Of a DNA stretch of 53,573 nucleotides, positions 31,987-53,012 are shown in pieces. A program made the position numbers and the translations under genes. Under the pieces are notes generated by a model, which had not been told where the DNA came from, searched no databases, and worked only from the letters and a program-made list of their open reading frames with translations. Source of the DNA: Acidobacteria bacterium RIFCSPLOWO2_12_FULL_54_10. GTDB taxonomy: Bacteria > Acidobacteriota > Terriglobia > 2-12-FULL-54-10. Position 1 is the first letter of the stretch; each line of letters begins with the position of its first letter. The DNA lies in NCBI GenBank assembly GCA_001767075.1, contig MEKX01000157.1, forward strand, positions 1-53,573, read 5' to 3'.

Positions 31987-34900
31987 TCACCAGCGTTCTA
32001 CTGGAACTTTGGCACGACCAATCTCCCGCAGGATGGCATTGGCCAGCCGTTGCGTGTTCATGTGTTCCTTAGCGATGAAGCCCTGTGCTCCCTGGTTCAT
32101 CGCCAGTACGGCCGTTTCTTTCTCAGGCAGGCCGCTAACGACGATGGTTGGCACATGCGGAGCCTGCGCACGGAGGCGGGCCAGCGTTTGCAGTCCGGAA
32201 CTGTCGGGAAGACCGAGGTCCAGCAAAACTGCATCGATCCCCCCTTGCTGCAGCCGCGCCAGGGCGTCGGAGAGCTTGGTCACGTGCGTGACACGGAACT
32301 GACTGTCAACCATGGGGAGCATCCGGCGAATGAGGCTGGCGTCGCCCGGGCTGTCCTCCACCAGAAGAAGATTTTTCGCAGGGATCCAAACTTCGATCCG
32401 GGTGCCTTGCGCCGGCGATGACTGAATGTGTAACGTCCCTTGTAGCAACCGTAACCGCTCCCGCATACTGACAAAGCCAAGGCCCGCCTTGCCATCCAGG
32501 GTTTTCGGATCAAAGCCGGTTCCGGCATCTTCGACGCTGAGAGCAATTCCCTCTGCGCCTGCCGACAGCTCCACCCGGGCCGAGCGAGCGCTGCTGTGCT
32601 TGGCAACGTTGTTTAGACTCTCTTCAGCGATGCGGAACAGGCACAGAGCGACATCGGATGGGAGTTGCCCCGCCATCGATTCGGGCGCGAATTCCACTTC
32701 AATGTGCCGCCGCTTGGTAAAATCCGTGACTAGGCTTTGCAGTGCGGGGACAAGTCCGAGCTGGTCGAGCATGGAGGAATGAAGGCGATGCGAGAGGTTG
32801 TGAATGTCCTGGGTAAGTTCATCGGCTTGTTGCCATAACTCATCCAGCCCCTTCTGCAAAGCCGCCGCGGTCATCGAATCCTCGGTGCGAAGCTGATCGA
32901 TCAGGATCGCCAGCAGCCCCACCCTCTGGCTCACGTGGTCGTGCAGCTCCCGTCCGATGCGGCTGCGCTCTTCTTCCTGCGCGCCAATGAGGCGGCCGGC
33001 CAGCTCCTGGAGCGCTTGCTCGGCGTGTTTGCGATCGCTGATGTCGCGGATGGCGCTGGTGATGAGGGGTCCGCTCTCGGTTTGCAAGGGACTGAGGCTG
33101 ATTTCCACCGGAACCTCACTGCCGTCCTTGCGCCGCCCATAAAGCTCCAGCCCCGCTCCCATGGGACGCGCGTGAGGGTTGGTGGAGAAACGCTGCCGAT
33201 GATCGGCGTGTTTGACGCGCAGAGACTCCGGCACGAGCATCTCAATGCGCTGGCCCTGCAACTCCTCACGCGCGTAGCCGAACAGCTTTTCCGTCTGGGC
33301 GTTCACCAGAACGATCTTTCCCTTCTGGTCTACAATCACCATGGCATCGGGCGCCGCCTCCAGCAGCTCCCGAAACTTCGCTTCACTGGCTTGCAGCGCC
33401 TCCTGGGCCCGCTTGCGGTCTCGGATGTCGCGAGCAATTTTGGAAGCGCCAACGATCCGCCCTCCGGAATCTCGAATGGGGGAGAGCCTCGAGGAGACAT
33501 CCACTGGCAAGCCATTTTTGGTGAGGCGAATCGTTTCATAGTGCTCGATTCGTTCGCCCCGCTCCATCCGCTTGAGCCAGGCCGCCTCTTCGCTCTGCAG
33601 GTCCGCAGGGATCAGAAGGGTAATTGGCTTGCCAACGACTTCCTGCGCGCTGTAACCAAAAAGCCGTTCAGCCCCCTGGTTCCAGCTCGTGATAATACCT
33701 TGGAGGTCTTTGGCGATAATTGCATCGTCGGAGGATTCCACGATGGCTGCCAGGTAGGTGCGGGATTGCTCGGCCTGGTGCTCCTCGGTGATGTCGCGGC
33801 AGACGCCGTGCAGCCCCACGAGGCGCCCGGTTGCGTCCAGGACTACCTCGCCGGTAGAGTCCAGGACTCGGACCTCCCCATCGGGACGGAGGATCCGTTC
33901 GCGCATCCGGAACGGCTGCCGGTCCCGCAAAGCCCGCTCGATCTCAGCACGCACCGCAGCCTGGTCGTCAGGATGCACGCAGGGGAGAAATGCTTCCAGC
34001 GTGCCCGAAAAGTCTGCCGGGGTTCGCCCATAGATCCGATAAAGCTCGTCAGACCACGTTACACGGTTCGTGATGACGTCCCACTGGAAGCTGCCCATGT
34101 GCGCGATCTGTTGCGCGCGCGCCAGCAACGCCTCGCTGCGGTGAAGTTCATTCTCCGCTCCTGCCAGTGCTTCTCCAGTAATCTCGACCCTTCCCTCCAA
34201 TTCGTGCCGGGCTATACGCAGTGCTGCCTCAACCTCCTTTTGCTCGGCAACGACCGCGGCCACAATTAATGTCATTACCCCAACGACTCCAATGAATCCC
34301 TGAACTACCAAAAGCGACCTATTGGGAGTCCCTGGGCCGACAAAATCATGACCATAAAGCAAACTTAAGATTGCGGCTCCGGACAACATAAGTACAGCCA
34401 TCGCCGCTCCCAATTTGCCAAAGCGGAAGGCAGCCCAAATTGTGAAGGGGAAGCATAGGTATTTTATCGGGCTCTCAATGCTTGTGAGCGGGCCAAGGGA
34501 GATCCAGGCGGCAAGAATTAACCCGCTGCTAAGGGCAATGGCTTCCAATACCTTGCGGCTATCCCACCGGGCCTGCGGAGCGACAAACCCAAGGACCAGC
34601 ACGGGGGTAACGACGAGGGCACCGATGGCGTCCCCGAGCCACCACGTCAGCCAGATCCGGCCGAAGTCTGCCCAGTCGGCAAACCCTGCCATTGAGAGAG
34701 TCGTGACACCAACTGTGGCGCTCACTGTGGTGCTGAGAATCGCCGCCAGGATCACAAAGCGAAAGATGGTTTGCGTTCGGTTGAAAACGTTCAACCCGCC
34801 CGCCAACCGGTTCACCAAGTAAGCTCCGGCCAGTCCTTCGGCGGTGTTTCCGATGGCAATACCGATGGAGGTTGCCACAGTGCCCGCCGTCGTTACATTC

Positions 34901-35166
34901 ACTATGAACGCGCTGATGAGAATGGCGGGCCAAACGCGATATCCGAACAGGAGGAACGCGGCCAGCGCGATGCCGGTGGGAGGCCATACTGGCGTCGCAC
35001 TGGGATTCACAAAAGCGAGTTGCAAGCTCAGCTTTGCGGCGGTGATATAGAGGAAGGCTAGCAGGCAGGAAATGGCCACATACCTAAGAGACGTTCGGTT
35101 CAGCTGCCAGTCTCGCACAAACTGCGGCGCTGCGACCGTCCCGGGTGCGGATTCATGGTCCATCAT
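31987..35166 (-). CDS. MASE1-PAS3 hybrid histidine kinase with C-terminal receiver
   Basis: A 1059-residue hybrid kinase. The order is: MASE1 membrane sensor (about 30-310, with [19 protein letters not shown] and [16 protein letters not shown]); three PAS domains (about 345-465, 470-590, 595-715; [19 protein letters not shown] and [17 protein letters not shown]); a HisKA_3 dimerisation domain with the His in [17 protein letters not shown]; a HATPase (about 830-925, [40 protein letters not shown]); and a receiver (about 930-1050). HisKA_3 kinases normally pair with NarL-type regulators, and one follows downstream. The receiver joins the ATPase domain with almost no linker ([19 protein letters not shown]), suggesting that a separate gene was fused. 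Confidence 0.9.
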
Positions 35167-37668: not shown

Positions 37669-38391
37669 GTGTCCCTTCTCCCCCTAGTTGATTTTTCCAA
37701 AAACCAAATCCTAGCCAATTTGCCCGACGAGGAATCCAAGCGTCTGCTACCTGATCTGCAGCTCCTATCGCCTCGCCTAAGCGACGTTGTCTATCGGTCC
37801 GGGGACCCCGTCCGCTACGCCTATTTCCCCCTCGATGCTGTGGTTTCCATCCTGGCTTCGATGGAAGATGGCAGGACCGTCGAGGTAACTCTAATAGGAA
37901 ACGAGGGCATCGTAGGAATCACGGCGCTGCTGGGCGGAAGTACGTCGGGGACCGTTGCGGTGGTCCAAGTTCCTGGCGACTACCTGAGGATAAAGGCGGA
38001 CGTGCTGCAGGCCGAATTCAGGCGCGGCGGCATGCTGAACCGCCGTCTGCTACGCTATATCAATTACCTTCTAGCTCAGATTTCACAAACGGCTGCCTGC
38101 AACCGCCTCCACCGACTGGAACAGCGGCTTGCCCGCTGGCTGCTGATGACCCACAATCGGGTACAGCGGGACGAATTTCCAATTACCCATGAATTCCTCT
38201 CCCATATGCTCGGAACACCGCGGTCGGAAGTGACCATCGCTGCCGGAATTCTCCAGAAGTCCTGGCTGATCCGATATGGGCGCGGCAGCGTAACGATCCT
38301 GGACCGTCCGGGATTGGAGGCCGTCGCCTGCGAATGCTTCCAAACGGATAGGGCTAGATTAAATGATCCCCCATCAGAAATGAAGCTGTGA
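37669..38391 (+). CDS. Crp/Fnr-type regulator, copy 1 of 3
   Basis: A 240-residue transcription regulator: cyclic-nucleotide-binding beta barrel (about 15-125: LLSPRLSDVVYRSGDPVRYAYFPLD, LIGNEGIVGITALLGG), dimer helix (RRLLRYINYLLAQISQTAACNR) and winged helix (HEFLSHMLGTPRSEVTIAAGIL, RGSVTILDRPGLEAVACECF). No Cys cluster for an iron-sulphur centre, and the cAMP-contact residues of E. coli CRP are not visible, so the ligand is unknown. The GTG start has AGGAGGT eight bases upstream. Two close paralogues follow in the same direction. Confidence 0.9.
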   Translation: MSLLPLVDFSKNQILANLPDEESKRLLPDLQLLSPRLSDVVYRSGDPVRYAYFPLDAVVSILASMEDGRTVEVTLIGNEGIVGITALLGGSTSGTVAVVQVPGDYLRIKADVLQAEFRRGGMLNRRLLRYINYLLAQISQTAACNRLHRLEQRLARWLLMTHNRVQRDEFPITHEFLSHMLGTPRSEVTIAAGILQKSWLIRYGRGSVTILDRPGLEAVACECFQTDRARLNDPPSEMKL

Positions 38392-38535
38392 GACACTGCT
38401 ACCAGTCCTAGCAGGATTGTTCTGGATGCCTAACTGACTAGGGTAAGGTGTTCTTTGCTTACGAAGTCGGGAGAAGGCCCTCCATCCCTGCCCTTTGTGC
38501 TGTTCGCAAGCGATGGAAGCGAGGAAGGTTGCAGG

Positions 38536-39243
38536 TTGACCGAGATATCCGAAGCCGATCTTAAAAAGAATCAGATTCTGGCGGCATTGCCCGAGAAGGA
38601 ATCCGAGCGCCTGCTACCCCATCTGCGATTCGTTTCTCTGAGCCTGGCACAAGTGCTCTATAAGCCGGAAGACACCATCCGCCACCTCTATTTCCCGCTC
38701 GATAGCGTAATTTCCTCGCTCGCTTCCATGGAAGACGGCAGGAGTGTTGAAATCAATCTTACTGGAGACGAAGGACTGCTGGGTCTTCGGGCGGTACTGG
38801 GAGCGAAAGTTTCTGGGTACTTTGCGATTGTCCAAGTTCCGGGCAAGGCCTTGAAAGTAGATGTAGACGTTCTTCGAGCGGAGTTTAAGCGCGGCGACGT
38901 GCTGCACGACAGGGTACTGCGCTATACCCGCTACCTTCTTTTTCAGGTTTCGCAAACTGCGGCTTGTAATCGCATCCACCGATTGGAACAGAGACTCGCC
39001 CGCTGGCTGCTGATGGTTCACAACCGCGCCAAGCGGGACGAATTTCCCATCACTCATGAATTCCTCTCCCAAATGCTCGGCACACCGCGCTCGGAGGTGA
39101 CCATCGCTGCCGGTATCCTACGCAAGGCCTGGCTTATCCGTTACTGGCGCGGCCGAATGACAATCCTCGACCGCCCGGGATTGGAATCGGCCACCTGCGA
39201 ATGTTATCGAGTCGTCACCAACGAGCTATGTAACCCCGGCTAG
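38536..39243 (+). CDS. Crp/Fnr-type regulator, copy 2 of 3
   Basis: A 235-residue paralogue of its neighbours, with the same domains: FVSLSLAQVLYKPEDTIRHLYFPLD, LTGDEGLLGLRAVLGAKVSG, RYTRYLLFQVSQTAACNR, RLARWLLMVHNRAKRDEFPI and LGTPRSEVTIAAGILRKAWL. The TTG at 38536 is chosen because GAGGAAGG lies about eight bases before it and because it gives exactly the length of copy 3; a TTG at 38455 would add 27 unconserved residues. The RYTRYLL and LLGLRAVLGAK forms group it with copy 3 rather than copy 1. Confidence 0.88.
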   Translation: MTEISEADLKKNQILAALPEKESERLLPHLRFVSLSLAQVLYKPEDTIRHLYFPLDSVISSLASMEDGRSVEINLTGDEGLLGLRAVLGAKVSGYFAIVQVPGKALKVDVDVLRAEFKRGDVLHDRVLRYTRYLLFQVSQTAACNRIHRLEQRLARWLLMVHNRAKRDEFPITHEFLSQMLGTPRSEVTIAAGILRKAWLIRYWRGRMTILDRPGLESATCECYRVVTNELCNPG

Positions 39244-39498
39244 AGCAGTGCCGGTGATGCATTCAGCCATGTGAAACGCTGGCGCGTCGCCAGTCACTCC
39301 ACCTCCCCCCCAATTGCAAGTGGGCCCATCCGAGAAGCGGGATCTGAATCTGCGGCTGTCCCGTCTTGGCGTGAGCGATTTAGTGGAAGGCCTGCACTGT
39401 CGTGCTCCCCGGATTTGGTCTGTTGGGAGGCTGACTGACGAGCCAGGAGAGGCCGTGCTCTCATATTCTTCAAATCTCAACGGTCCTATTCCTAGTCT

Positions 39499-40206
39499 AT
39501 GCTTGGCTCAACGCAACTCGGTCTGTCCCAAAATCAGATTCTCGCTGCCTTGTCCAGGGAAGAGACCAAAGACCTTCTGCCCAGTTTGGAGCTCATTTCT
39601 CTCCGTCCGGGTGAAATTCTCTACCGGCCCGGAGCTCCCATGCGCTACGTCTATTTCCCGCTGAATTCTGTGGTTTACTTGCTTGCGTCCATGGGAGGGG
39701 GCAGGACCGTCGAGGTGAATTTGATCGGAGAGGAAGGGATGCTGGGACTTCGGGCAGTATTGGGAGCAAAAACGTCTGGAAAGCTTGCTGCTGTGCACAT
39801 TCCCGGCAGCTGCTTGAGGATCAAAGCGAATGTGATTCAAGCTCAGTTCAAGCGGTGCGGCGGGCTGCACGATCGGCTACTTCGTTATACCCGCTATCTC
39901 CTTTGTCAGATTTCCCAAACGGCAGCCTGCAACCGGGGTCACTTGGTGGAACAGCGTTTGGCTCGCTGGTTGTTGATGGTTCATGATCGCGCGAAAAAGG
40001 ATGAGTTCCCCATAACTCACGCGCTGCTATCTGATATGCTCGGCACCCCGCGGTCGGAGGTAACCCTGGCGGCTGGAATGTTCCGTAAAGCTGACATAGT
40101 GAGGTACGTGCGCGGCAGAATCACAATTCTGAACCGCCGGAAATTAGAATCTACAGCTTGCCAGTGCTACCGCATCGTCTCCGACGAATTGGATCATCCA
40201 ATCTAG
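39499..40206 (+). CDS. Crp/Fnr-type regulator, copy 3 of 3
   Basis: A 235-residue regulator with LISLRPGEILYRPGAPMRYVYFPLN, LIGEEGMLGLRAVLGAKTSG, RYTRYLLCQISQTAACNR and LLSDMLGTPRSEVTLAAGMF. The recognition helix keeps LGTPRSEVT but the flanking wing differs (ADIVRYVRGRITILNRRKLE), so its DNA site may differ from those of copies 1 and 2. No good ribosome site precedes the ATG. It is separated from copy 2 by 255 bases without a gene. The three copies probably arose by tandem duplication followed by divergence. Confidence 0.88.
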   Translation: MLGSTQLGLSQNQILAALSREETKDLLPSLELISLRPGEILYRPGAPMRYVYFPLNSVVYLLASMGGGRTVEVNLIGEEGMLGLRAVLGAKTSGKLAAVHIPGSCLRIKANVIQAQFKRCGGLHDRLLRYTRYLLCQISQTAACNRGHLVEQRLARWLLMVHDRAKKDEFPITHALLSDMLGTPRSEVTLAAGMFRKADIVRYVRGRITILNRRKLESTACQCYRIVSDELDHPI

Positions 40207-41044: not shown

Positions 41045-41461
41045 ATGCTGGCGTATCCGAAAGTTCTTCTGCTCAGTAGCGACGAAACGGAAACGAGTGT
41101 AATGGAAAAAATCCTCAGCGAGCACGTAATACTGCGGAGCATCGGAGACCTGGCCGAGTTGCGAAACCATCTGGATGGTGCCTATGACGCCCTGTTCTGC
41201 GGGTGGTCCTTTCAGAAAGGCGGCTGGAATGAAGCCTTGAGACAAGTTCGAAAACGCTGTCCCGACTTGCCAGTGGTGATTTTCTCCCGGGTGGGAGGGG
41301 AGCAGGAATGGGTCGAGGCGTTGGAAGCAGGTGCCTTTGACCTGCTGGTTGCGCCATATTTGAAACGCAATGTTCTCCCGCTCCTGGAACACGCCGTCGC
41401 CTCCCACGAAGCACGGCGCTGGCACAATGCAGCCTTTCGCAACAGCGCGATGGCCGTTTGA
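41045..41461 (+). CDS. Degenerate receiver-like protein, copy 2
   Basis: A 138-residue paralogue of 36371-36790: PKVLLLSSDETETSVMEKIL, YDALFCGWSFQKGGWNEALRQV, CPDLPVVIFSRVGGEQEWVEALEAG, AFDLLVAPYLKRNVLPLLEHA. The site that is FCDW in copy 1 is FCGW here, so the only candidate phospho-Asp is lost, as are the acidic pair and the Lys. Signalling by aspartyl phosphorylation is therefore unlikely, and it may act by binding. GGAGGT lies five bases before the ATG. The 71-residue zinc-ribbon gene follows after 14 bases. Confidence 0.82.
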   Translation: MLAYPKVLLLSSDETETSVMEKILSEHVILRSIGDLAELRNHLDGAYDALFCGWSFQKGGWNEALRQVRKRCPDLPVVIFSRVGGEQEWVEALEAGAFDLLVAPYLKRNVLPLLEHAVASHEARRWHNAAFRNSAMAV

Positions 41462-42014: not shown

Positions 42015-42959
42015 ATGGCGGACAGCAAAAAGAGGGACAAGCGAACCAGAATTCCGGGCCCGTCATCGTTAGCATCGCCTATGGGGACAGCAATGCTAGA
42101 ATCCACGGCAGTGTTGCTCAGAGAGTTGGTATCCCACCTGCGGGAGAACCGCACCCAGTTGCGCGAGGAGTGGGCGCGGCGCATCACTGAATCCCAGTTG
42201 CTGGTGGCGATGACCCAAGAGGAGATCTTCAAGGAAGCTACCGCCGTGTACGACAACTACGTGGCGGTGCTGGAGACGGGCAGCGTTGAAGCTCTGGAGG
42301 CATACGCTCGGGACCTGTCGGAACGCATCATCCCGCGGGGCGTAGAAACCCGCGAGGTGTTGGGCATCGTGCTGCTGCTGCGCGACGTGCTGGCCCGCTC
42401 CCTGTTTAAGAAGTATCAGGCGGACTTTGGACTGCTGAACCGGGTCCTGGATGCCTATGAACCGGCCGCTAACCGCATCGCGAACACCGTGGGCGTCGGT
42501 TTCGTGCAAGAGCGCGAGCGCATCATCCGCCAGCAGCAGGAGGCCATCCGGGAACTTTCCACCCCGGTGCTGCAGGTCCGCGAGCGGCTGCTCATCTTAC
42601 CGATCATCGGCGTGATTGATCCGCAGCGCGCCCGCCAGGTGACCGAGCAACTCCTCCGCGGCATCCGGGCCAACCGCGCCAAAGTGGTGGTGATTGATAT
42701 CACCGGTGTTCCCTCTGTGGACTCAACGGTCGCCAATCACTTGGTGCAGACGGTGGACGCTTCCCGGCTGATGGGCGCTACCGTTATCGTCACCGGCTTG
42801 TCCTCCGAGATCGCCCAGACGCTGGTGACCATCGGAGTGGATCTGACGAAGATGAAGACCATCGGCGACTTGCAGGGAGGCATCGAGGAAGCTGAACGAC
42901 TGCTGGGTTACAGAGTCACGATGATGATGCAGGCCCCAGAACAAACTGCTGCGAAGTAA
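42015..42959 (+). CDS. rsbR: RsbR-type stressosome protein
   Basis: A 314-residue co-antagonist that builds the stressosome shell with RsbS. The N-terminal part (about 28-175) is an RsbRD-like helical sensor (LLRELVSHLRENRTQLREEWARRI), LGIVLLLRDVLARSL; the C-terminal STAS domain (about 185-300) has PIIGVIDPQRARQVTEQLL, VVVIDITGVPSVDSTVANHLV with the phosphorylatable Ser/Thr after VD, and GATVIVTGLSSEIAQTLVTIGVD. GGAGGG is ten bases before the ATG. It opens the rsbR-S-T-X-kinase operon; rsbS starts three bases after its stop. Confidence 0.93.
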   Translation: MADSKKRDKRTRIPGPSSLASPMGTAMLESTAVLLRELVSHLRENRTQLREEWARRITESQLLVAMTQEEIFKEATAVYDNYVAVLETGSVEALEAYARDLSERIIPRGVETREVLGIVLLLRDVLARSLFKKYQADFGLLNRVLDAYEPAANRIANTVGVGFVQERERIIRQQQEAIRELSTPVLQVRERLLILPIIGVIDPQRARQVTEQLLRGIRANRAKVVVIDITGVPSVDSTVANHLVQTVDASRLMGATVIVTGLSSEIAQTLVTIGVDLTKMKTIGDLQGGIEEAERLLGYRVTMMMQAPEQTAAK

Positions 42960-42962
42960 GCG

Positions 42963-43343
42963 ATGAGAGTTCCCATCCTCAAGCAAGGCGGTTATTTAAT
43001 TGCTTCCATTCAGTCCGCCCTCTCGGACTATGAGCTGCTCCAGCTCCGGGACGACCTGTCCGCGCAGGTGGGACGGTTCCGTTCCCGGGGAGTCATTGTG
43101 GATGTCACTGTGCTGGATGTGATGGACTCATTCGCCGTCCGAACTCTGCGTGCCATTGCCCAAATCGGCCACATGCGGGGAGCGGAAACGGTCATCGTCG
43201 GCATTCAGCCCGAGGTTGCCTTCGCGATGGTGCAGTTGGGCTTGGCGCTGGGTGACGTGGAGACCGCGCTGGATTTGGAAGAAGGCCTGGCGTTGTTGGA
43301 TCTCCGGACCAAGCGGGGCGAGAGCCATGTCACTGAAAGCTGA
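42963..43343 (+). CDS. rsbS: RsbS-type stressosome scaffold, STAS protein
   Basis: A 126-residue single STAS domain protein, the antagonist that holds RsbT in the stressosome until phosphorylated. VPILKQGGYLIASIQSALSD opens the domain; the phospho-Ser is Ser56 in VMDSFAVRTLRAIAQ, aligned with Ser59 of Bacillus RsbS; GAETVIVGIQPEVAFAMVQLG is the second helix region. It overlaps rsbT by 17 bases. Confidence 0.93.
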   Translation: MRVPILKQGGYLIASIQSALSDYELLQLRDDLSAQVGRFRSRGVIVDVTVLDVMDSFAVRTLRAIAQIGHMRGAETVIVGIQPEVAFAMVQLGLALGDVETALDLEEGLALLDLRTKRGESHVTES

Positions 43344-43734
43344 AATCCATATTCCCATCAATTCCGACGCTGACATTGTGACAGCCCGCCAGCAAGGGCG
43401 GGAGCTGGCGCAGCAGGCGGGTTTCAATGGCAGCGACCTGACCGTCATCTCCACGGCGATTTCCGAAGTGGCTCGCAACATCGTAGAGCATGCGCGGTCG
43501 GGAGAGATCGTCCTCAGCGTTGCCAATGGCCCCGGACGGTCTGGCCTCGTCGTAGTGGCTCGTGATCATGGGCCCGGCATACTGGACATCTCTCTGGCCA
43601 TGCAAGACGGCTATTCTACCGGAAAAGGCTTAGGGCTGGGTTTGCCGGGGACCCGCCGTTTGATGGATGAATTTGAAATCACTTCCAAGCCGGGGGCCGG
43701 GACCACCGTGACCATGAAGAAGTGGAGGCGGTGA
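43327..43734 (+). CDS. rsbT: RsbT serine kinase
   Basis: A 135-residue GHKL-fold switch kinase that phosphorylates RsbR and RsbS and, once free, binds the RsbU-type N-terminal domain of its target. The N-box is AISEVARNIVEHA (Glu47, Asn51), followed by RDHGPGI (80-85) and the lid GLGLGLPG (101-108), all intact. ATG 43327 overlaps the end of rsbS and is preceded by GGGGCGAGAG. Its target here is probably the kinase at 44359-46854. Compare the motif-less paralogue at 24525-24914. Confidence 0.94.
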   Translation: MSLKAEIHIPINSDADIVTARQQGRELAQQAGFNGSDLTVISTAISEVARNIVEHARSGEIVLSVANGPGRSGLVVVARDHGPGILDISLAMQDGYSTGKGLGLGLPGTRRLMDEFEITSKPGAGTTVTMKKWRR

Positions 43735-43735
43735 C

Positions 43736-44362
43736 GTGTCGCGAGGGACTCCGCAGACAATGCGGCTGGTAGAGTATGCCACCGCTAGTATGATAATTCC
43801 GGGGGAGTCGGAATCGGGCGACCGCTATATTGCTGCTCCCACGCCAACCGGGGCGCTGATCGCGGTGATCGATGGCCTGGGGCATGGAGTGGAGGCGGCG
43901 GAGGCCTCCAAAGTGGCCGTGGCGACGCTGGAACGTTACGCCTCGGAATCCGTCATCGCATTGATTCGACGCTGTAACGAAGCAATGAAAACAACGCGCG
44001 GCGCGGTGATGAGCCTGGCCTCGTTCAGCGCCCAGAACCACACCATGACTTGCCTGGGCGTGGGCAATGTGGAAGGCGTCTTGCTGCGCACGGATGCGCA
44101 GGCGGGCCAGTCGCGGGAAAGCATTTTGATGCGCGGCGGAGTGGTCGGCTTTCGGCTCCCCACACTGCGAGCCTTGGTCATGCCTGTTTCGCCCGGAGAC
44201 ATTTTGATTCTTGCCACCGACGGCATTCGGAGCGGTTTTGAGATCAACCTGAGCATCAGTGCCCCGCTGCAGCAGATCGCCGACACTATTTGCAGCCAAC
44301 ACGGGAAAGGTACTGATGACGCCCTGGTATTGGTGGCCCGATATATGGGAGACGGGTCATGA
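43736..44362 (+). CDS. rsbX: RsbX-type PP2C phosphatase
   Basis: A 208-residue SpoIIE/PP2C-like phosphatase that should dephosphorylate RsbR and RsbS to reset the stressosome. The metal-binding motifs are ESGDRYIA, GALIAVIDGLGHG, LASFSAQNHTMTCLGVGNVEG, GDILILATDGIRSGF and GTDDALVLVARY. It lacks an extra sensor domain, like RsbX and unlike RsbU. The GTG start follows the rsbT stop by one base; its TGA overlaps the ATG of the next gene as ATGA. Confidence 0.92.
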   Translation: MSRGTPQTMRLVEYATASMIIPGESESGDRYIAAPTPTGALIAVIDGLGHGVEAAEASKVAVATLERYASESVIALIRRCNEAMKTTRGAVMSLASFSAQNHTMTCLGVGNVEGVLLRTDAQAGQSRESILMRGGVVGFRLPTLRALVMPVSPGDILILATDGIRSGFEINLSISAPLQQIADTICSQHGKGTDDALVLVARYMGDGS

Positions 44363-46854
44363 GCGATATCTTGGACCAATTGACGAAGCAATATGCAGCC
44401 GCACTGCACGACTTTCTTGCGGTGGGAGGGGAGGCCGCGTTGCGCCGGGCTTATGAGCTAGGGCGCCAAGCCATTGCCGACCGGGTGGGCGTTCTGGAAA
44501 TGTTCGCAATCCATAGCAGGTTGATTACGACAACCTTCGCGGTTCCCGTCCCGCGTGAACCGGCTATGCAAATCTCCGAGCGGGCCGCGGCGTTTTTTGC
44601 CGAATGCTTGTCGCCTTTTGAAATGGCACTGGGCGGTTACCAGGAAGCGAACGAGTCGCTGCGCGTTAAGGTCGAACAGATTCAGGCAGCCGAAAAGGAA
44701 GCGCAGCTGCAGAACCAGGAATTGGTGGCCGCCTACCGGTCCGTAGAAATGGAGCGCCGTCGCTACCAGGAACTGTTTGATTTTGCTCCAGACGCCTACT
44801 TGATCACGGATCTGGGCGCCATTATCCAGGAGGCTAACACCCCGGCGGCCGCCCTGCTTCAGCGCCATCAAGACCTTCTGGTAGGCGAGTCCTTGTCCTC
44901 TTTCGTAGTCGAGGAAGAGCTGCAATCGTTTCTGGGCCAATTGGCACGGCTTCGGAATGGGGAACCAGAAAAATTGGAATTCTGGCAACTGGCGGTGCAG
45001 CGCCCCAATGGCAGATCCATCCCTGTTTCCCTCACCGTGGGAATCGTGCGCGATCCGCACGGCGTGCCTGTGGGCCTGCGCTGTCTGCTGCGCGACATCA
45101 CGGAAAGGAAACGACTGGAGGAGGAGAGATCTCAACTTCGCGTTCGGGAGCATCTGGCTCGCACGGAGTCCGAGGCGGCCCAACGACTAAAGTTCCTAGC
45201 GGAAGCGAGCACCGCCTTGACAGGTTCCCTGGACTACGAGTCCATCCCGGCCAATATCGCGCGTCTTGCGGTGCCGCACCTGGCAGATGGTTGTTTTGTG
45301 CACCTGACTGATGATTCGATGGCTATCCGTCATTTTGCAGCGGCCCATAAGGACTCCGGGAAAGCGGAGTTCCTGGAAGGGCTGCAATCCCACAAGCCCC
45401 AACGAGAGTTGCCGCCTCCCGTAGCGGAGGTCTTACGTAGGGGAAGACCGGAAATTATCCTGGAAATCTCCGATGCCTGGCTGGAAGGTTTTGCCGGCGG
45501 GCCCGAGGATTTCAAAATTCTGCGCAACATGAACTTTACGTCTGCATTAGTGGTGCCGCTTATTACGCCGGGACGCCTGCTGGGAGCGATTACCTTAGGA
45601 AGCGCCGCATCGAATCGTCTCTATACTGCCGAGGACGTTGCTCTGGCGGATGTATTTGCCCGTCGCTGCGCTTTGGTTCTTGAAAACGCCAGACTCTACC
45701 AGCAGGTCGTCATTGAACGGGACAAGGCCGAAAGGGCCAGCCAGGCGAAAGAGGAATTTGTGGCAGTCCTCAGCCATGAGCTGAGGACTCCTCTGATGGC
45801 AATCCTTGGTTGGGCGCGCCTTCTGAACAGGCAGCCTCAGATCATGACGAATAAGGACCTCGGCGACGGAATCCGATCATTAGAGCACAATGCCCAAACG
45901 ATCGCCCGGCTGGTCGATGATTGCCTGGACGTAGCCCGGATTTCCGAAGGCAAGATTAAACTGCAAAGGGAATTGGTAGATCTGAATCAGGTGGCCAAGG
46001 CAGCCTCTGCGGCTACTGGTGAAATGGCTCATGCCAAGCGAATCCGGTTCGCGATACACTCCTCGGGCTCCAGCCTCACTGTTTCCGGCGACAAGACTCG
46101 ACTGGAACAAGTGCTGCTGAACTTGCTGACAAATGCTATCAAATATACCGAGAGAGGTGGCGAAATTTCTGTCAATTTGCGCCAGGCAGGCAAGGAAGGA
46201 GAAATCGAAGTGCGGGACACGGGGATCGGGATCGATCCCGATTTCATTGAGCAAATCTTTCAGCCTTTCGGCCAAGGGACTATGAATTGGTTTGCCTCCG
46301 AGTCCGGCCTCGGACTGGGACTCGCCATCGCGCGCGAGATTGTCCAGATGCATGGCGGCCGTATTTGGGCCGAGAGTTCCGGACGAGGACGTGGAAGCAC
46401 TTTCCGTCTGCAGTTGCCGCTAACTCCGGTTGCCGTGCTGCAGAAGGATGTTGGTTCGCAACAACTGTCTGTCCTGCCGGAGGTCAAACCGTTGCGGATA
46501 TTGTTCGTAGAAGATTCTAGGGATGTTCTCAATTTGCTTCGGATAGAGCTGGAAGCGTTGGGTTATTCCGTCCTGATGGCAGCGGACGGCGAGAGCGGAT
46601 TGGAAATCGCTAAACGGGAACTGCCGGATGTGCTTGTTTCAGACATTAAGATGCCACGGTTTGACGGATACCAATTAATTGAGCAGGTCCGCAGGATCCC
46701 GCAGTTAGCTGCAATTCCTGCCATCGCCCTGACTGGTTTTGGCAGGAGCAAGGATGTCGAAAAAGCTCTCCACGCCGGGTATAATGCCCACCTTTGCAAG
46801 CCTGTCGAGCTGAACGAACTGATTGCTGTGATTCAAAAACTAGCTTCCGTGTGA
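44359..46854 (+). CDS. RsbU_N-PAS-GAF hybrid histidine kinase
   Basis: An 831-residue soluble hybrid kinase. Residues 1-95 resemble the RsbT-binding N-terminal domain of RsbU (LTKQYAAALHDFLAVGGEAALRRAYELGRQAI, in two parts around FLAVGG; VLEMFAIHSRLI). Then come a coiled coil, PAS (about 140-255), GAF (about 275-450), HisKA with the His in AVLSHELRTPLMAILGW, HATPase (NLLTNAIKYTERGG, DTGIGIDPDFIEQIFQPFGQ, GLGLGLAIAREIVQ) and a receiver (about 705-825; RILFVEDSRDVLN, LVSDIKMPRFDGYQ, IALTGFGRSKD, LCKPVEL). It has no membrane segment. Coupled by an ATGA overlap to rsbX, it takes the place that rsbU has in Bacillus, so free RsbT may set its activity. Confidence 0.92.
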   Translation: MSDILDQLTKQYAAALHDFLAVGGEAALRRAYELGRQAIADRVGVLEMFAIHSRLITTTFAVPVPREPAMQISERAAAFFAECLSPFEMALGGYQEANESLRVKVEQIQAAEKEAQLQNQELVAAYRSVEMERRRYQELFDFAPDAYLITDLGAIIQEANTPAAALLQRHQDLLVGESLSSFVVEEELQSFLGQLARLRNGEPEKLEFWQLAVQRPNGRSIPVSLTVGIVRDPHGVPVGLRCLLRDITERKRLEEERSQLRVREHLARTESEAAQRLKFLAEASTALTGSLDYESIPANIARLAVPHLADGCFVHLTDDSMAIRHFAAAHKDSGKAEFLEGLQSHKPQRELPPPVAEVLRRGRPEIILEISDAWLEGFAGGPEDFKILRNMNFTSALVVPLITPGRLLGAITLGSAASNRLYTAEDVALADVFARRCALVLENARLYQQVVIERDKAERASQAKEEFVAVLSHELRTPLMAILGWARLLNRQPQIMTNKDLGDGIRSLEHNAQTIARLVDDCLDVARISEGKIKLQRELVDLNQVAKAASAATGEMAHAKRIRFAIHSSGSSLTVSGDKTRLEQVLLNLLTNAIKYTERGGEISVNLRQAGKEGEIEVRDTGIGIDPDFIEQIFQPFGQGTMNWFASESGLGLGLAIAREIVQMHGGRIWAESSGRGRGSTFRLQLPLTPVAVLQKDVGSQQLSVLPEVKPLRILFVEDSRDVLNLLRIELEALGYSVLMAADGESGLEIAKRELPDVLVSDIKMPRFDGYQLIEQVRRIPQLAAIPAIALTGFGRSKDVEKALHAGYNAHLCKPVELNELIAVIQKLASV

Positions 46855-47211
46855 GGGATGTACTCTGCGCCAAGCGGACATCCCGCAGGCCGCATGGCCC
46901 GTGGCTCTGGATGGTACCCGCATTCCAGCGAGTCTGGAAAAGTCATTCCTACCGAATACTTCCGACAGTCGATCTCGAATTGCGATCAGATTCTCTCCCT
47001 TAATGAAAATTCTCAATAACCGTCGGAAGGTCAGACACATAGATCATTTGAGGAATTGACCCTGCTTGGTAGTACTGGGACTGGCTACCGCTTTGGCAAT
47101 CCAAATGCCCTTTCACCGAGTGGGTAAATGGACTCGAGGCGTACGCTGATGAAACCAGAGGGCAGCGAAGGGCCATTACCTGAAAGGCGCACGTAGACAG
47201 GTGGCGAAGTG
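46855..47211. other. Intergenic after the stressosome operon
   Basis: 357 bases without a gene. CTTCCGAC (near 46962) and GTCGGAAG (near 47022) form a long-loop inverted repeat of eight bases, perhaps by chance. The promoter of the PilZ gene is expected here. Confidence 0.35.
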
Positions 47212-47859
47212 ATGAGCTTACCAGCTCCATCCTGGAGTGAACGCCGCATCGTACACAGATTCGCGACAGTGAGCCCCATTCGGTTCGAATGGCTAACCGC
47301 TGGGGGCGACCTGTTTCGCGCCCGTGGGATGACGCGCGACATTTCCAATGGAGGAGTATTCAGTTACGTCGAACACCCCTTATCAGCCGGTTTAGAAGTC
47401 ACCTTTGACGTCTTGTTCCCGGCAGAACTGGTGGGCCGCGAGGCAGTGATGTTGCGTTGCCGCGGTCGAGTGCTGCGCAGCGAGAAATTTCATAACCGTT
47501 TCGGAGTTGCTGTTTCGATGGAAGGCCTCCATCTGATCGACACGGCAAAGTTTTACCGACGTGCATCTCTGCGGGTCGTCCCTGCCTCCACCGTAATAGC
47601 CGAGTGCGCCGGATTGCACGCGGCGGTTCGGGATTTATCTCCGATTGGCGCTTTCGTTGAGGATCGCGATCCCCAGCCGCTCGGCCGTAGGATCGAGTTG
47701 CACCTCCAGACGCGGGAATGGAAGGGCGAAATCGAAATGGATGCTATTGTGCGACGGGTGGAGCCCGAAACGGGCATGGGCGTGGAGTTTGTCGTTATAA
47801 CCCGCGATGCTCAACGCCAGTTGCGAGAACTTGTGAGAAACGGCGCGACTGCGGAATAA
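47212..47859 (+). CDS. Tandem PilZ-domain protein
   Basis: A 215-residue protein of two PilZ domains. The first (about 10-105) has RRIVHR (RxxxR) and TRDISNGGVFSY (DxSxxG); the second (about 115-205) has RRASLR (RxxxR) and VRDLSPIGAFVED (DxSxxG). Both motif pairs for c-di-GMP are complete, so it may bind two dimers or sense concentration in a graded way. No output domain. GTG at 47209 precedes ATG 47212 in frame; the ATG is preferred. It lies just upstream of the exopolysaccharide operon in the same direction, which it may control. Confidence 0.9.
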   Translation: MSLPAPSWSERRIVHRFATVSPIRFEWLTAGGDLFRARGMTRDISNGGVFSYVEHPLSAGLEVTFDVLFPAELVGREAVMLRCRGRVLRSEKFHNRFGVAVSMEGLHLIDTAKFYRRASLRVVPASTVIAECAGLHAAVRDLSPIGAFVEDRDPQPLGRRIELHLQTREWKGEIEMDAIVRRVEPETGMGVEFVVITRDAQRQLRELVRNGATAE

Positions 47860-48152
47860 GAAATCCAAATCAGGCTACTACTTCGATTCATGGTAATCCT
47901 TCGGCGAGCCAATGCTATCGGATTCAATCTGGCTGCTTCTGGAAAAAAAATTTGTTTGCGGAGCCAAAGAGTAACTGCATTCCACTAAAAAGCCTCTCCA
48001 ATACCACTTTCCCGTTGTGTTGAATTTTGCTTTCCCACCCTCCGACTCTAGCACTAACTTGCTCCGTTGCCTCACTTAACTGTTCCAACTGTATTTCTGT
48101 TCCCTCTGGCCCCGCTCTTGCATTGATCCAAGTGGCAGACGAGGGAGGTTGT

Positions 48153-48722
48153 ATGGCTTGGAAGAAAGTTTGCACCGCAATTTTCCTTCTGAGTTTCCTG
48201 GCACTTCGGGCGGAAGGGCAGCAAACCCAGTCGATCGCATTCGGCGATGGGGAATACTTTCTGGGCCCGGAGGATGTGGTCCAGATCTGGATTTGGAAGG
48301 AGCCTGATCTTTCCACCACCGCTGTCGTGCGACCGGATGGAAAACTTTCCTTACCACTCATCGGCGAGCTTGAGGCAAAGGAAAAGACTGCAACGCAACT
48401 GCAAGAGGAGATTCGAAACAAGCTGCGAAGCTACATCGCCGACCCCGTGGTCACCGTGATTGTGAAGGAAGTCAACTTCCCCAAGGTCTCCGTGCTTGGC
48501 AAGGTCCACAAGCCGGATATGTACAAGCTCAAGCAGAAGATTACAGTCCTCGATGCCATTGCAATGGCAGGAGGATTTACCGACTATGCCAAACGCGACA
48601 AGGTCTTCGTGATCCGAAAGAATTCTATCCAGCAGCAACGAATTCAGATCAATCTCAAGAGCCCCGAGAAAGAAGCTGGGCCATTCTACTTGCAACCGTT
48701 CGACACCGTGTACGTGGAATGA
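48153..48722 (+). CDS. Wza-type polysaccharide export protein
   Basis: A 189-residue outer-membrane exporter of the Wza/OPX class. ATG 48153 is chosen for GGGAGGTTGT upstream and the signal peptide it opens (MAWKKVCTAIFLLSFLALRA, then EGQ). The poly-export domain is YFLGPEDVVQIWIWKEPDLS, VRPDGKLSLPLIGELEAKEKT and IADPVVTVIVKEV; then a SLBB domain (VSVLGKVHKPDMYKLKQKIT, AIAMAGGFTDYAKRDKVFVI). No lipobox Cys and no C-terminal barrel helix, so it is a short OPX and another outer-membrane protein (perhaps the one at 49344) may complete the channel. First gene of the EPS operon. Confidence 0.92.
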   Translation: MAWKKVCTAIFLLSFLALRAEGQQTQSIAFGDGEYFLGPEDVVQIWIWKEPDLSTTAVVRPDGKLSLPLIGELEAKEKTATQLQEEIRNKLRSYIADPVVTVIVKEVNFPKVSVLGKVHKPDMYKLKQKITVLDAIAMAGGFTDYAKRDKVFVIRKNSIQQQRIQINLKSPEKEAGPFYLQPFDTVYVE

Positions 48723-48723
48723 A

Positions 48724-49260
48724 ATGGAACAGACGCTGGAAACCATCGGACATGGGCGCGGAGAGGCCGCAGTGGGACCGAACCGCAAAATCAGGATGCT
48801 GCTCTCGAGTAAGAATGTGATGTTTCTTGAGGGAATCCGGGCGATTCTCGGCCAAGACCCTTCGATTCAGATAGTGGGAGAAGCCCGCCAGCTCAGTGAA
48901 ACGGTAGAAAAAGCTGATGTCCTTCATCCGCACGTGGTGTTGTTGGACGGTGTTCTAACGGATTTCAGCACCCTGGACGCCATCCAGAACATGAGGCGAG
49001 CCCACGCGAAGATCAAGATCATGGTGCTCAGTGTATCCGGGCGGTTGAATTCCACTGCGCCACTCTTGGCCGCCGGCGCCTCGATGTATGTTCCCCCGGA
49101 GATTGGACCAGCGCAGTTGTTCCACTGGATCCATGCTGCCGTGTCGCCGGATGGACGGCAGTCTGTGCAGCATGTAAGCGGCGCCCACATGCGCCGCGAT
49201 CAAAAAGCCCCAAGACCGGGCGGGGGCAATCTACGGATCGTGAAAAGGACGAGGATATGA
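48724..49260 (+). CDS. Receiver-domain protein within the EPS operon
   Basis: A 178-residue NarL-like receiver: KIRMLLSSKNVMFLEGIRAIL, HPHVVLLDGVLTDFSTLDAI (phospho-Asp), IMVLSVSGRLNSTAPLLAAGAS, YVPPEIGPAQLFHWIHAAV. The acidic pocket is reduced (LSSKN) and the active-site Lys is replaced (MYVPPE), so it is a degenerate receiver. The tail (about 145-178) is short and basic and not a helix-turn-helix. It starts one base after the Wza stop. It may be a protein-protein regulator of polysaccharide assembly. Confidence 0.78.
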   Translation: MEQTLETIGHGRGEAAVGPNRKIRMLLSSKNVMFLEGIRAILGQDPSIQIVGEARQLSETVEKADVLHPHVVLLDGVLTDFSTLDAIQNMRRAHAKIKIMVLSVSGRLNSTAPLLAAGASMYVPPEIGPAQLFHWIHAAVSPDGRQSVQHVSGAHMRRDQKAPRPGGGNLRIVKRTRI

Positions 49261-50726: not shown

Positions 50727-53012
50727 ATGCAAGCAACGGAAACCGCCAAAGAATTTTCCATTGGCAGAATATTTGCGGTGATCCGAAAGCGCAGAGCTTG
50801 GCTGCTGACCACTGTGTTGCTGGCAACTCTTGCGGCTGCGATCTATGCCTTCAGCCAGGCCGATCGTTTCCGGGCGGAGGCGCTGTTAGCAGCCGAGCCT
50901 CCGGGCGTCCCGAATTACGTCAAGCGCGATATGCCTACTGCCCCCATCAATATGCAGGACAAATTATGGCTCATCCGCGAACGCCTGTTCAATCCCACGG
51001 TGCTCGAGACGGTCATTCAGGAATTCCAGCTTTACGCGAACACTCTCCCCGAAAACTTTTTGGAAAAGATGTGGGCTCAATCCAAGCTCCGGCTGATGGA
51101 AGCCGCCCGAAGCCTGCCGTTTTATCATCCGGAAGAAATGACCGAAACAGAACGGCGGCAACGCCAGATTGAGGATATGAAGTCGAGAATTACGATCCAG
51201 GTGGAAGCAGCCGATGCCTTCGCGATTGGTTTTGAGGGAAAAGGCAGGGAGCAAACAATGGATGTGGCCAATCGACTGGCCGACCTGCTGGTCCAGAGGA
51301 CAACAGCGGTCAGCGAGCAGAATGCCAGTTGGGCCGCAGGCTTTCTGAAAACCGAAGTGGAGCAGGTCAAGACAAGACTGGACCAGCAGAACGAACAGAT
51401 CCGGCAGTATCAGCAGCGAGCTCCGGATGAATTGCCGGCACGTTTGGCGACGGATCTGAAGTTTCTGGAGACGTTGCAAGCTCAATTGCACGCCAAAACA
51501 GAGCAGATCTCTGACGACCAAGCCCGGCGCTCGGCCGTCTTGCAGGAATTGAAAGACCTCGAAGACCAGGGAGCGCTAGAGTCTGGGGTAAAGTCGTCCA
51601 CGGAGACCCGGCTGGATGAGTTGCGGACTCGGCTGAAACAACTACAGGCGACTTATACCGACCAATACCCTGAGATCCGAAGTGTTCAGACAGAAATTCA
51701 GAGCTTGGAGAAAACCATTACGGCCAGCCAGAGCGCTGACGGGACAATTCGCGGGGAAGCCACGCCCGCCAGACTTCGGTACGTGGCTTTGAAAGCGGAG
51801 TCGGAGGAGATCAACCAACGATTGGAGAGCTACCGGAAACAGCAAAGCGAGCTTTCCTCCGATATGGCAGGTTACGAGCGAAAAGTAAACTCAGCACCGC
51901 AGCGGGAAAGAACCTTGGCCGAACTGGTCAGGAATTACGAGCTAACAAGGGCGGAATATCAGTCGCTTCTCGATAAACAGAATCAGGCGCAACTCGATGA
52001 GCGTCTGAGCAAGGTAAATCAAAACTCCGATTTTCGGATCGTTCGAAATGCAATCCTCCCCTTGAAACCATACGCTCCGCAACGTGCCCGAATTATTCTG
52101 ATGGGAGTATTTGCCGGCCTCGCCCTGGGTGTCGGCCTGGTTGTCTTCGCAGAGGCTCGGGATACTTCCTATGACAGCGCCGAGGAATTTCACGATTCCA
52201 CGAATCTGCCGGTACTGACGGTAGTCCCATCCCTTCATTCGCCCAGCAACGGACGGACTCGCTCCGGGACACGATCCAACACGCTCTCGCTAGGGACCAG
52301 GCCTTTGGAGAACAAGTGCGTGGTGGCGTTGAGTGATCCCCGATCCATTGCTTCCGAGCAGTATGGCATCTTGGCGATGGAAGTTCGCCAACGCCTGGGG
52401 AGAGAGCCCGGCAAGGTGCTGGCAGTGACCAGCGCCGCCGGCGGCGAGGGGAAGACAATCACTTCTCTGAACTTGAGCCTGGTATTGTCCAGAACAATGG
52501 ATGGCCGGGTCCTGCTCCTGGAGAGCGATTTGCGCAGGCCGCGGCTCCAGGAATATCTGGGCTTCCGCCCGCAGAAAGGCTTCAGCGATCTCCTCAAAGC
52601 GCCCGATGATCCAATGGAGCCCTACCTGGTGAGGGTCAACGGGCTTTCCGTTCTCCCGGGCGGACCTGTTCTCGAAGATCCTTTGAAACTGTTGGCCTCG
52701 CCACAGACACCTGCTGTTTTTGCCCGTCTCCGACAGAAGTTTGATCTCATTGTTGTCGATACGCCTCCGATACTTCCCATCGCCGACACGCACATTCTGT
52801 CAGGCTTCTCGGATGGAGTCATTCTCGTTGTTCGCGCCAGGCAGACTCGCCGTGAGCTTCTCCAGCATGCCCTCCGGAGCTTCCGCGTATCCAATCTTCT
52901 CGGGGTGGTATTGAACGGAGTGGACCTCCAACGCTCTGGCTACTACTACGCGTACGATTACTACGCGAATCAATACCTTGCCGGCGAGAAACAAAAGGGG
53001 TCAAGGCCATGA
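50727..53012 (+). CDS. Wzc-like tyrosine autokinase / chain-length regulator
   Basis: A 761-residue inner-membrane co-polymerase and BY-kinase for exopolysaccharide. Wzz domain with two membrane segments (about 27-43 and 452-470), a long periplasmic coiled coil (about 190-430, GNVR-type end), and a C-terminal kinase with Walker A TSAAGGEGKT, Walker A' VLLLESDLRRPRL, Walker B FDLIVVDTPP and a C-terminal Tyr cluster (SGYYYAYDYYANQYL) for autophosphorylation. The Walker A' Asp is in ESDLR. It follows the barrel gene by six bases and overlaps the next gene by ATGA. Confidence 0.94.
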   Translation: MQATETAKEFSIGRIFAVIRKRRAWLLTTVLLATLAAAIYAFSQADRFRAEALLAAEPPGVPNYVKRDMPTAPINMQDKLWLIRERLFNPTVLETVIQEFQLYANTLPENFLEKMWAQSKLRLMEAARSLPFYHPEEMTETERRQRQIEDMKSRITIQVEAADAFAIGFEGKGREQTMDVANRLADLLVQRTTAVSEQNASWAAGFLKTEVEQVKTRLDQQNEQIRQYQQRAPDELPARLATDLKFLETLQAQLHAKTEQISDDQARRSAVLQELKDLEDQGALESGVKSSTETRLDELRTRLKQLQATYTDQYPEIRSVQTEIQSLEKTITASQSADGTIRGEATPARLRYVALKAESEEINQRLESYRKQQSELSSDMAGYERKVNSAPQRERTLAELVRNYELTRAEYQSLLDKQNQAQLDERLSKVNQNSDFRIVRNAILPLKPYAPQRARIILMGVFAGLALGVGLVVFAEARDTSYDSAEEFHDSTNLPVLTVVPSLHSPSNGRTRSGTRSNTLSLGTRPLENKCVVALSDPRSIASEQYGILAMEVRQRLGREPGKVLAVTSAAGGEGKTITSLNLSLVLSRTMDGRVLLLESDLRRPRLQEYLGFRPQKGFSDLLKAPDDPMEPYLVRVNGLSVLPGGPVLEDPLKLLASPQTPAVFARLRQKFDLIVVDTPPILPIADTHILSGFSDGVILVVRARQTRRELLQHALRSFRVSNLLGVVLNGVDLQRSGYYYAYDYYANQYLAGEKQKGSRP

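Follow-up and report, generated by a model that had tools for sequence, protein, structure and literature searches.

The window analysed in this work is the whole 53,573-nucleotide contig MEKX01000157.1 of Acidobacteria bacterium RIFCSPLOWO2_12_FULL_54_10, on the forward strand of which five consecutive genes, located between positions 42015 and 46854, specify a stressosome module and a hybrid histidine kinase that is probably under the control of the switch kinase RsbT. The first gene, rsbR (42015-42959), encodes an RsbRD_N-like sensor domain followed by a STAS domain, for which the Pfam scores were 24.3 bits (exactly equal to the cut-off) and 55.6 bits, respectively. It is followed by rsbS (42963-43343), encoding a STAS antagonist recognised by Pfam STAS, by rsbT (43327-43734), encoding an HATPase_c_2 switch kinase with intact N and G boxes, by rsbX (43736-44362), which has a GTG start and encodes a feedback phosphatase of the SpoIIE/PP2C type, and by the kinase gene of 831 codons (44359-46854). 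The start of rsbT was assigned to the conserved ATG at 43327, the list of open reading frames opening the same frame earlier, at a GTG at 43150. The span which a preliminary description had given for this locus is right; the genes had also been called complete and overlapping, which holds for rsbS and rsbT (17 nucleotides, nt) and for rsbX and the kinase gene (4 nt), but not for rsbR and rsbS or for rsbT and rsbX, these being separated by gaps of 3 and 1 nt, respectively.

Based on an alignment with Bacillaceae RsbR, Ser237 of the window RsbR occupies what we take to be the position of phospho-Thr205 in Bacillus subtilis, and Val200 that of Thr171, while Ser56 of RsbS, inside the conserved DSF motif, presumably corresponds to phospho-Ser59. 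The kinase is composed of RsbU_N, a coiled helix, PAS, GAF, HisKA, HATPase_c and REC (receiver), the domains, as proposed previously, being confirmed by Pfam matches over cut-off; HisKA, HATPase_c and REC are located where the RsbU phosphatase carries PP2C/SpoIIE. The hallmarks of a hybrid kinase are complete, with phospho-acceptor positions at His473 (HisKA) and Asp762 (receiver), and with the ATPase boxes recognised from the sequence.

The RsbU_N domain and the putative RsbT-docking residues

The RsbU_N domain and the start of the linker helix occupy kinase residues 1-116 (44359-44706). Pfam RsbU_N was assigned to residues 10-63 with 32.1 bits in a protein scan (cut-off 25.5; E 1.3e-7) and to the same region with 36.4 bits in a genome scan. 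A profile built from 21 N-termini (20 from related genomes and that of the window) retrieved, out of 177,635 Protein Data Bank (PDB) sequences, four RsbU chains (2j70, 2j6z, 1w53 and 2j6y) with E values of 2.9e-7 to 3.5e-6, and no non-RsbU match at E ≤ 1. Because the profile matches RsbU structures alone at this level, the RsbU_N assignment is not a chance result.

AlphaFold2 predicted helices in the kinase N-terminus at residues 2-22, 25-40, 45-61 and 69-141, with a mean predicted local distance difference test (pLDDT) score of 92.1 and a predicted template modelling (pTM) score of 0.59, the last of these being a continuous helix of 73 residues (44563-44781) which is predicted to lead from the fourth helix of RsbU_N into the PAS domain. 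Modelled alone, residues 1-116 gave a pLDDT of 95.8 and a pTM of 0.83. When this 116-residue model was compared with known structures, Foldseek returned 1W53, the kinase-recruitment domain of RsbU, as top match (probability 1.00, E 0.12), and VIA-align returned the KaiA C-terminal domain (Z 11.0), RsbR_N (Z 9.3) and RsbU (Z 8.2-8.3; at 8.2, a root-mean-square deviation of 3.2 with 67 aligned residues), the VIA-align rows of a 255-residue model covering mostly PAS and being uninformative on RsbU_N. The predicted fold is compatible with RsbU_N, the identification being carried by the sequence profile. The PAS-GAF type is represented by six kinases (those of the window, L036, L041, L044, L050 and L070), five of which have linkers of identical length, that of L041 being shorter by exactly 14 residues; such a loss would amount to two heptads and fits a putative coiled coil requiring a constant register.

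Binding of RsbT reportedly involves RsbU residues Glu24, Tyr28, Ile74 and Ile78 and RsbT residues Arg19, Arg23 and Asn24, together with a salt bridge between RsbU Arg91 and RsbT Asp92 (PMC12143880). Kinase Glu25 aligns with B. subtilis RsbU Glu24, and its column is the sole invariant one in each of two sets, of 58 and of 51 RsbU_N domains, from many phyla. The counterpart of RsbU Arg91 depends on the alignment, being Asn98 without and Arg102 with a gap. On the RsbT side, Arg21, Arg25 and Asp94 of the window protein correspond to Arg19, Arg23 and Asp92 of B. subtilis and match Bacillaceae RsbT; among 18 RsbT sequences the first of the three does not vary at all, and the other two hardly do.

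Several observations weigh against an RsbU_N domain that recruits RsbT. A single-sequence PDB search with the 116 N-terminal residues of the window kinase missed RsbU and produced unrelated weak matches only. Taken by itself, the fold match does not settle the identification, because the E value of 1W53 is 0.12 and because KaiA and RsbR_N exceed RsbU by Z score. Moreover, RsbU Tyr28, Ile74 and Ile78 are replaced, according to the alignment, by Arg29, Ala81 and Ser85, and residue 92 is Gly, a position held by Arg in 90% or more of the RsbU_N domains sampled. Considering that Glu25 and the RsbT residues are kept and that three RsbU-side contacts are changed, an interface with a plausible core and a divergent rim is suggested, and the predicted fold and the conserved contact glutamate would fit RsbT docking.

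RsbU_N proteins in other genomes

In a class sample of 151 related genomes an RsbU_N match was detected in 26, in 23 of them over the cut-off, and the set examined consisted of the window kinase and 23 other over-cut-off proteins (the RsbU_N of L050 and L051 being slightly below the cut-off in protein scans); four sub-threshold matches (L052-L055), in which no RsbU_N was found, were left out. HATPase_c is present in 22 of these 23 proteins, the remaining one (L034) stopping at a contig end after a partial HisKA_3, and Pfam assigned a PP2C domain to none of the 23. Sixteen proteins are of the HisKA_3 (NarX-like) type, and in 15 of these cases, truncated L034 being the exception, an adjacent gene encodes a receiver-GerE protein of the NarL type, REC-GerE being confirmed by Pfam in all four such neighbours scanned. 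The other seven are of the HisKA type and lack a NarL-type neighbour; four of them have a receiver of their own, and two more end with the contig. Genes rsbS and rsbT adjoin 20 of the 23 kinase genes.

An even sample of the phylum (396 genomes), in which L164 and L168 seem to duplicate the genomes of L070 and L061, so that the samples overlap, yielded 14 further RsbU_N proteins, of which 12 are kinases, one is cut by a contig end and one (L170) is a sigma-54 activator. In the last case (L170:1024-3231) genes for RsbT and RsbX are followed by a gene specifying RsbU_N-GAF-Sigma54_activat-HTH_8. The RsbT docking domain is here joined to a sigma-54 enhancer-binding protein, which may link the stressosome directly to transcription; among the literature matches listed, none of which concerns RsbT, no paper on a fusion of this type was present.

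A scan of named genomes with an RsbT alignment produced at least 561 loci, of which the best 80 were analysed; since the selection favoured RsbTs similar to those of acidobacteria, the proportions of effectors among them are biased. RsbU_N is encoded downstream in 66 of the 80 loci, on 42 kinases, on two GGDEF proteins (by motif) and on 22 proteins to which the profile models gave no class. The 42 kinases comprise 26 of the NarX type, 25 of them with a NarL-type neighbour, and 16 of the HisKA type, two of which have a receiver in the same frame. For nine of the 22 unclassified proteins Pfam identified PP2C (three), GGDEF-EAL (two), HD (one) or no output domain in the frame (three), and among the other 13 a weak PP2C-like match was obtained for four, nine being left without a class. 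The 14 loci without RsbU_N include two in which PP2C proteins follow and one in which a sigma-54 activator follows. Records in which the kinase form was seen bear the names of Acidobacteria, Rokubacteria, Bacteroidetes, Verrucomicrobia, Ignavibacteria, Chloroflexi, Proteobacteria and further groups; a large part of them are metagenome bins, so that the names cannot always be relied upon.

These loci also include other arrangements. In a Planctomycetota bin (L086:6092-7546) a module in the order rsbR-rsbS-rsbT-rsbX (RSTX) is followed by a sigma-54 activator without a detected RsbU_N. Beside the RSTX genes of Pseudonocardia acaciae (L113:6394-10617) is a frame of 1408 amino acids with the order RsbU_N-HisKA-HATPase-REC-PAS-SpoIIE-HATPase_c_2, which unites kinase, phosphatase and anti-sigma-like domains, and in a Bipolaricaulota bin (L120:7412-9217) a fusion of RsbU_N and HD_5 adjoins a stressosome module. 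Five Actinomycetota loci (L058, L067, L068, L082 and L085) have the order rsbT-rsbR-rsbS followed by a short RsbU_N frame, in which a Pfam scan, applied to L082 only, found no effector domain.

On an RsbT tree of 98 rows and 130 columns, with 15 of 95 inner branches starred and with the near-duplicate loci L077, L097 and L102 dropped, the effector type changes seven times among 72 labelled rows, against a mean of 11.7 when labels are shuffled. At face value this weakly suggests that effectors cluster by RsbT descent yet have been switched several times, the tree being weak evidence because its starred branches alone force at most one change per group.

This distribution bears on the possibility that RsbU_N is a mere dimerisation domain or a sensory domain of its own, and that stressosome genes are adjacent to the kinase gene for historical reasons. 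Such an explanation could account for the alteration of three of the four published RsbU-side contact positions and for the three of 23 RsbU_N kinase genes with no rsbT within the stretch fetched, but it is distinctly unlikely in view of the rsbS and rsbT genes adjoining the other 20 and of the RsbU_N domains which, next to rsbT, are also found on PP2C, GGDEF-EAL and HD effectors. Considering that the domain is found beside rsbT on several effector types, it tracks RsbT rather than the effector.

Proposed mechanism and output of the kinase

We consider it likely that the five genes constitute a complete stressosome signalling module with a histidine kinase output, in which docking of RsbT on RsbU_N switches the kinase on. 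This is supported by the gene order, the domains, the RsbU_N homology, the compatible predicted fold, the intact catalytic residues, the conserved docking glutamate and the recurring architecture; that the proteins assemble into a complex, that RsbT docks and that it activates the kinase instead of inhibiting it are inferred, as are the receiver and the regulon. RsbR and RsbS would build the stressosome and retain RsbT, which, upon stress, would phosphorylate RsbS and RsbR and then depart. Free RsbT would dock onto the RsbU_N domains and the adjoining helix of a kinase dimer, thereby setting the geometry of the long helix leading into PAS and, via PAS and GAF, that of HisKA. Autophosphorylation would thus be turned on, the phosphate being passed to the kinase's own receiver and from there to a further regulator, and RsbX would reset RsbR and RsbS.

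Docking of RsbT could instead inhibit the kinase or convert it to a phosphatase, in which case stress would lower receiver phosphorylation. Hybrid kinases can indeed be restrained by their own receiver, as is the case for RsbK of the Bacillus cereus sigma-B pathway with its inhibitory receiver (PMC4574943), but both characterised RsbU_N effectors, RsbU and a Moorella diguanylate cyclase, are reported to be controlled by RsbT, RsbU by activation (PMC12143880), and we regard inhibition as unlikely. It is very improbable that RsbT phosphorylates the kinase on Ser/Thr rather than docking on it: this was proposed for a Vibrio kinase without RsbU_N (PMC9237108), whereas the window kinase possesses RsbU_N with the docking glutamate. 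For Vibrio RsbT, the same paper reports no positive interaction with the kinase VvD1, which however lacks RsbU_N, and this counts against activation by docking, as do two findings on the receiving side of the kinase. A search of the genome for a free HPt domain returned one HPt only, inside a frame of 873 amino acids on another contig (C10), and the window kinase has no clear receiver, given this lone HPt and the degenerate receiver nearby.

The latter is a stand-alone receiver (48724-49260, plus strand), in which SS replaces the acidic pair and the conserved Lys is absent, and which we take to be degenerate on the basis of the REC motif. A second degenerate receiver gene (41045-41461) is located directly upstream of rsbR, at the same place as in L041 (69% identity). 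As partners of the kinase the stand-alone receivers at 41045 and 48724 are doubtful, both being degenerate by sequence.

The preliminary description had predicted a two-component phosphorelay instead of a sigma-B pathway. Two-component output is supported, because in relatives RsbU_N kinases are found time and again together with response regulators, and a strict phosphorelay for the window kinase is not. A sigma-B output is unsupported, since no sigma factor of the SigB/F/G type passes the cut-off in the genome, which is 88.6% complete (best score 133 bits, cut-off 234). An RsbU-type phosphatase encoded elsewhere was considered as the real RsbT target; SpoIIE was found at seven places of the genome (RsbX included), yet the single RsbU_N retrieved by the genome scan is that of the window kinase.

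The same hybrid kinase is present in both RsbU_N-bearing relatives of the same family, L041 (67% identity) and L036 (58%), and the full hybrid also in L070, named Acidobacteria gp18 (51%). Downstream of the kinase gene, L041 and L036 encode a Poly_export/SLBB protein, then a stand-alone receiver, a protein without annotation and a Wzc-like kinase. The corresponding window genes, also on the plus strand, encode a Poly_export/SLBB (Wza-like) protein (48027-48722) and a Wzz/GNVR/AAA_31 (Wzc-like) exopolysaccharide tyrosine kinase (50727-53012), both neighbours being kept in the two relatives, and they are preceded by a gene for a PilZ-domain protein (47209-47859, plus strand), located 354 nt from the kinase gene and kept in L041 only (59% identity). 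Judging from this neighbourhood, the adjoining exopolysaccharide cluster is a candidate regulon or output of the kinase. Upstream of the stressosome operon are three consecutive genes for Crp/FNR-like regulators (37669-40206, starting at 37669, 38455 and 39499) and, approximately 7 kb upstream on the minus strand, a gene for a membrane hybrid kinase of 1059 amino acids with the order MASE1-PAS-HATPase-REC (31987-35166).

Comparison with known stressosome systems

RSTX modules followed by kinases, some of them with RsbU_N, have been described in Proteobacteria (Heinz et al. 2022, PMC9237108), and a 2025 eLife paper repeats the RSTX-kinase case, models an NreB-like example and proposes exchangeable modules (PMC12143880). 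The preliminary description had singled out this fusion as worthy of attention. It is not unique, RsbU_N kinases behind RSTX being already in print and the PAS-GAF hybrid recurring in relatives. On the outputs of acidobacterial stressosomes, no paper was found in the open-licence literature searched.

The breadth of RsbU_N kinases and the sigma-54 fusion of L170 are more interesting results than the window case. The published proposal that RsbT-controlled N-terminal domains are swappable among phosphatases, kinases and cyclases becomes testable on natural proteins, and since a DNA-binding regulator is encoded next to the kinases of the NarX type, their output could be directly readable. A role of the stressosome is suggested in bacteria without sigma-B, where little is known. 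On a broader reading, about which we are evenly divided, the default stressosome output in Acidobacteriota, and probably in many phyla, would be a two-component system and not sigma-B, RsbU_N being a portable socket for RsbT which is mostly attached to a NarX-type kinase acting with a NarL-type regulator, in the window lineage to a hybrid kinase associated with genes for exopolysaccharide, and also to at least one sigma-54 activator.

The window system shares with the RsbU_N kinases of Proteobacteria the RSTX order, the RsbU_N-kinase fusion, a predicted coiled-coil linker and a proposed two-component output (PMC9237108, PMC12143880). The survey of Proteobacteria covers loci with globin-coupled RsbR (PMC9237108), whereas the window RsbR has an RsbRD_N-like N-terminus, and the window kinase differs in being a hybrid that combines PAS and GAF with a receiver of its own. 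The RSTX-VvD1/VvD2 locus of Vibrio vulnificus is similar in that a stressosome module adjoins a two-component system, but VvD1 is described as being without RsbU_N (PMC9237108). In Moorella thermoacetica, too, RsbT is reported to control an effector that carries RsbU_N without being a phosphatase, a diguanylate cyclase, the output there being GGDEF and in the window a kinase (Quin et al. 2012, as related in PMC12143880 and PMC4976288). With the RsbT-RsbU-sigma-B pathway of B. subtilis, finally, the window system has in common the RsbR/S/T/X set, RsbU_N and the conserved positions of RsbU Glu24 and of RsbT Arg19, Arg23 and Asp92, whereas it differs in the kinase that replaces the PP2C phosphatase, in the location of rsbX before the effector gene and in having no sigma-B over the cut-off.

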